Source of the DNA: Nitrospirota bacterium
GTDB taxonomy: Bacteria > Nitrospirota > Thermodesulfovibrionia > Thermodesulfovibrionales > JdFR-85
Direction: 5' to 3'
Assembly (NCBI GenBank): GCA_013151495.1
Contig: JAADIE010000010.1
Span: 1-33,130, forward strand
DNA length: 33,130 nucleotides
In this document: positions 16,373 to 18,688 of the stretch, piece by piece
Layout: each line of letters opens with the position of its first letter
Position numbering within the stretch: the first letter of the stretch is position 1
The notes under the pieces: model-generated
Told to the model about the DNA's origin: nothing
Database searches by the model: none
Seen by the model: only the letters and a program-made list of their open reading frames with translations
Translations under genes and position numbers: made by a program

Positions 16373-18688
<2,316 letters not shown>

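Follow-up and report, generated by a model that had tools for sequence, protein, structure and literature searches.

An isolated frame break at an A-run in a DUF1015 gene of a Nitrospirota draft genome, probably of non-programmed origin

DUF1015 genes are conserved in bacteria, and their function is poorly known. The -1 frameshift sites of dnaX and of IS-type elements combine the heptamer A_AAA_AAG with an upstream Shine-Dalgarno (SD) sequence and a downstream stem. All high-level frameshifting has been described as involving stimulators, specialised cases apart, and a minority of the known 3' stimulators start 12-15 nt downstream (PMC5009743). In E. coli, 10% frameshifting was measured on a cassette with A_AAA_AAA, the heptamer of a magnesium chelatase cluster in GeneTack that comprises 23 frameshifted genes from six genera (PMC3711429). 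In GeneTack, programmed sites are expected to be conserved, and singletons confirmed by homology ('H-pseudo/Error') to reflect errors of sequencing and not true indels. For transcriptional slippage, selection against it at runs of nine nucleotides has been reported in a large proportion of genomes, with the addition that some bacteria may also show slippage at shorter runs (PMC1088944).

The locus described here shares the phase of the heptamer and the direction of the shift with the dnaX and IS-type sites, but it comes without conservation, without a stem that clearly beats shuffled sequences and without a strong SD. The heptamer and the -1 direction are those of the magnesium chelatase cluster, whereas a single frameshifted gene was found here. 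The locus resembles the GeneTack singletons in that the break occurs once, is confirmed by Pfam and by homologs, and has no conserved frameshift site; it differs from them in lying at an A-run whose phase is, by chance, that of a slippery site. Poly-A transcriptional slippage, described for 9A, likewise places a homopolymer of A at the break, but the run here counts seven and is not conserved.

The window, i.e. the whole stretch of DNA that was analysed (33,130 nt), is one complete contig (C114) of a draft genome of 128 contigs and 1.73 Mb, which was judged 95.6% complete and is probably a metagenome bin. One relative of the same genus was found, the Nitrospirae MAG G011 (Nitrospirae bacterium isolate S009_28, contig WFMM01000134). 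Its DUF1015 locus, L022, is referred to below as the sister, and its protein is 66% identical to that of the window. The DUF1015 gene of the window has a phosphoesterase gene (Pfam) on one side and, on the other, what we take to be the GAPDH and PGK genes, both named by recognition of their sequences and without a family call. A scan of the window against Rfam returned no matches, and NCBIfam gave no families for two proteins.

The frame break and its distribution among relatives

The preliminary description of this DNA held that the two halves of a DUF1015 protein lie in different frames and part at an in-frame A_AAA_AAA. Pfam, the overlap of the frames and homology all confirm this (Table 1). 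Both halves match PF06245 above the cut-off, with E-values of 9.3e-46 for the first and 3.4e-39 for the frame from 16882, and they jointly span positions 1-325 of the 325 in the profile. Since the two matches abut at position 171, a single domain has been split without loss. The two frames are open together over 73 nt only, a TGA bounding the second frame upstream and a TAA ending the first, so that the frame change must fall within this stretch; the family alignment narrows it by homology to about 16870-16890. The 0-frame codons at the A7 run read TTA AAA AAA CCC, which places the heptamer in X_XXY_YYZ phase, as had been stated.

Table 1. Coordinates of the features discussed (positions in the window)
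Feature	Position	Strand	Remarks
DUF1015 gene	16373-17628	+	PF06245, in two frames
DUF1015 N-terminal part	16373..16939	+	188 aa; PF06245 positions 1-171
DUF1015 C-terminal part, other frame	16882..17628	+	PF06245 positions 171-325
A7 run, 0-frame A_AAA_AAA, likeliest place of the indel	16876..16882	+	sequence, homology, frame analysis
Stretch open in both frames, confining the frame change	16867..16939	+	frame analysis
GAPDH gene	17684..18688	+	name recognised from sequence; adjoins DUF1015
Second broken gene, PAS/histidine kinase	2779..4475	+	frame change near 3375

A -1 shift at the heptamer had been said to yield a normal protein of 418 residues. The family sequence is indeed restored by it, but at the junction the product exceeds every one of the 14 intact family relatives by a residue. 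This extra residue would be further evidence against a programmed -1 event, and only moderate evidence, because the loop is longer in some distant relatives; longer loops occur in some planctomycete relatives and in one genome of the same order (G140).

The alignment of orthologs that had been proposed as a check was carried out on 16 family relatives, and the A-run is not kept at the site. One unbroken frame covers the domain in 14 of them. In G003 the gene is broken elsewhere, at profile position 120/125 around HSKPKAD (loci L016/L020), and G002 does not have this part of DUF1015, its contig ending there. A break at the same place was found in none of the 15 family relatives holding this part. 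Across the class, a profile search detected the domain in 219 of 230 genomes, six of which gave two matches (the window genome G000, G003, G060, G158, G212 and G140), a count of genomes in two pieces and not proof that the other 213 are intact, as a second piece below threshold would escape it. The two matches are pieces on different contigs in G060, G158 and G212, and G140 has a run of N. Among the matches listed, a break at profile position 171 is present in the window genome only and in none of the five other two-match genomes. Three of the single-match genomes were inspected (G094, G182, G188), and in these DUF1015 begins at a contig end. In a wider set of 20 loci, 19 have one open frame across the place of the break, the sister L022 being counted again among them; the remaining locus, L038, has 207 aa, sits at a contig end and was excluded because it was too short for this alignment.

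The heptamer itself does not appear to be special. There are eight in-frame copies of A_AAA_AAA in the window (34 ORFs taken as genes), seven of which sit in six other ORFs, and A-runs of 7-8 are also present in other genes of the window. Two family relatives with unbroken genes carry slippery heptamers of their own, some three codons upstream of the spot homologous to the break: G010 reads GAA AAA AAA TCC (A_AAA_AAA, A8) and G009 reads GAA AAA AAG TCC (A_AAA_AAG, A7). The other 12 intact family relatives have no A-run longer than five within 23 codons around this spot. Slippery heptamers are common in this genome because of its lysine-rich loops, and lysine codons in a variable loop account for the form of this one. 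Taken alone, the coincidence of a frame break with a slippery heptamer is no evidence of recoding, because such loops make heptamers common and because indels favour the same runs.

Condition of the gene and of the contig

Judged from its sequence, the DUF1015 gene bears no sign of decay. Third-position differences predominate in both halves, and invariant columns are retained at 53 of 54 positions before the junction and at 64 of 65 after it. The identity of the window protein to 13 other relatives exceeds that of the sister by 0.015, by the same amount in both halves. As the two halves are conserved as in the intact sister, the break would be very recent, bypassed, or absent from the organism.

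A PAS/histidine kinase gene in the window is also broken (Table 1). Its break site, cctgtggagaggcc, contains no long homopolymer. The first part is matched by six family relatives, and in five of these a single ORF spans both halves seen in the window; for L146, the sixth, the alignment was limited to the kinase half. A scan of 548 sister-genus ORFs against 481 kb of this genome found good matches for 131 of them. The break-like pairs numbered five, namely the two in the window, where the kinase relative L143 had been put in by hand, one at L048 and two at 25-34% identity, which may be different genes. A relaxed version of the scan, later refined, recovered the known DUF1015 break as a positive control; of the seven flags of this version that were inspected, five read as antisense ORFs across real genes. 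The reverse scan, in which the ORFs of this genome were compared with a sample of G011, found matches for 124 of 448 ORFs and flagged two pairs. Breaks are thus uncommon in the sample of this genome, with two in this contig, and the pattern does not separate error from real mutation; that few breaks lie outside the window argues against a generally poor consensus.

The pair at L048 (10963-11213, contig C7 of the window genome) is a candidate frame break; the gene is short and lies at the extreme end of its contig.

Explanations of the break

The break, its absence from the inspected relatives and the undecayed second half are the observations from which we infer its cause. With a probability of about 0.9, the break is a one-off, non-programmed small indel at the A-run, being either an assembly or consensus error or a recent mutation. 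Under this explanation, the DUF1015 gene is otherwise normal, and the small insertion or deletion would have arisen at the A-run, within a variable loop rich in lysine. A consensus error of the draft assembly is slightly favoured. Credible though less probable is a slipped-strand mutation that arose very recently in the strain sampled; with a real mutation, the majority of ribosomes would stop at 16937-16939 and leave a stump of 188 residues. A homopolymer error and a recent deletion had both been put forward in the preliminary description and stay viable, while real slippage, which it had named with doubt, is not supported.

Programmed or productive slippage and re-initiation are improbable even when pooled. 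Another very unlikely reading is a real indel that became fixed in the lineage, with low-level -1 slippage, of about the extent measured for a 7-A cassette, supplying enough full-length protein to keep the second half under selection. The 10% frameshifting on the A_AAA_AAA cassette makes some read-through, and with it a weak rescue, physically possible. If true, such a 'saved' gene would illustrate how ribosomal slippage can compensate for a real indel, possibly with less of a serine-kinase-like enzyme being made.

It is very unlikely that A_AAA_AAA is a site of programmed -1 ribosomal frameshifting, which would supply either the complete protein or two products under regulation. Such frameshifting would be in keeping with the correct X_XXY_YYZ phase, with the restored family sequence and with the efficiency of the cassette in E. 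coli (PMC3711429), but the break is missing from the 15 family relatives that contain this place and from the five other two-match class genomes, among the matches listed, and both G010 and G009 carry slippery heptamers nearby in unbroken genes. The added junction residue also weighs against it, to the degree that the longer loops of some distant relatives allow. A predicted hairpin starts 12 nt after the heptamer, at a spacing known from a minority of stimulators (PMC5009743), but it is not clearly better than shuffled sequences: the fold z-scores, which consider hairpins only, are -0.43, +0.23 and -1.29 for the downstream sequence and -0.29 when an upstream part is included. Upstream there is AAGG alone, ending 16 nt before the heptamer. 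The earlier remark that no strong stimulatory SD or stem lies near the site agrees with these results, in which no stimulator is evident among hairpins (z from -1.29 to +0.23 downstream). Relatives with unbroken genes and an unconserved A-run had been named in the preliminary description as a refuting outcome, and this is the outcome obtained for programmed slippage.

More improbable still is transcriptional slippage on the A7 run, by which a mixture of mRNAs would be made, part of them with the frame restored. A homopolymer does lie at the break, and slippage of RNA polymerase occurs on runs of A (PMC1088944), but the run falls short of nine, it is not conserved, and A-runs of 7-8 are found in other genes of the window too. 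Least likely of all is a split gene in which the second half is re-initiated at an in-frame ATG at 16930 and the halves assemble: a second half starting there would overlap the first half's stop (TAA 16937-16939), and the place homologous to the break falls in a predicted loop that, in the sister model (mean pLDDT 61), connects helix 158-168 to strand 174-177, but the residues from the junction to this methionine would be lost, 'MW' stands at this place in 10 of the 14 intact family relatives so that the methionine would be ancestral and not a new start, no clear ribosome-binding site is visible by eye, and none of the inspected relatives is split here.

Fold and neighbourhood of the DUF1015 family

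GAPDH lies 3' of DUF1015 on the same strand in all 16 family relatives, at a spacing of 50-190 nt in 15 of them and of about 580 nt in G011. The sister protein (L022 9488-10729) was modelled with AlphaFold2 at low confidence, the mean pLDDT being 61. When the model was compared with known structures, all nine rows with a Z of 5 or more were free serine kinase, SbnI or 1vk1; their Z-scores run from 5.7 to 9.4, with two over 8 and the next row at 3.6, and the tool warns that a Z under 8 may mean little. The matches cover the C-terminal region of the sister protein, roughly residues 247-405, which lies beyond the break. With this low-confidence model, the best Foldseek match had an E-value of 0.023 and none reached 0.001. 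A sequence search of the PDB with a 13-row profile gave no match. The C-terminal half alone gave five weak hits, which were taken as chance; three of them were chains of prolyl-4-hydroxylase type (E 0.003), and the other two belonged to a 65 kDa virulence protein (E 0.39).

The 1vk1 entry is a Pyrococcus protein that we take to be a homologue of SerK, and COG4198 is presumably the DUF1015 group. SerK phosphorylates free serine in Thermococcus; according to the same paper, no clear-cut homologs of it are found in bacteria, and DUF1015 is not mentioned (PMC5120207). Glycine riboswitches have been described upstream of COG4198 genes (PMC2211319), and a 'DU1015' that is probably the DUF1015 domain is listed among the fusions of the ParB-CTPase fold (PMC12704722). 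At low confidence, the modelled DUF1015 fold best matches the serine kinases SerK and SbnI, of ParB-type fold. Together with the neighbouring GAPDH gene, the fold model suggests that DUF1015 is possibly an enzyme of serine metabolism, and this SerK-like fold is perhaps a more useful lead than the frame break.
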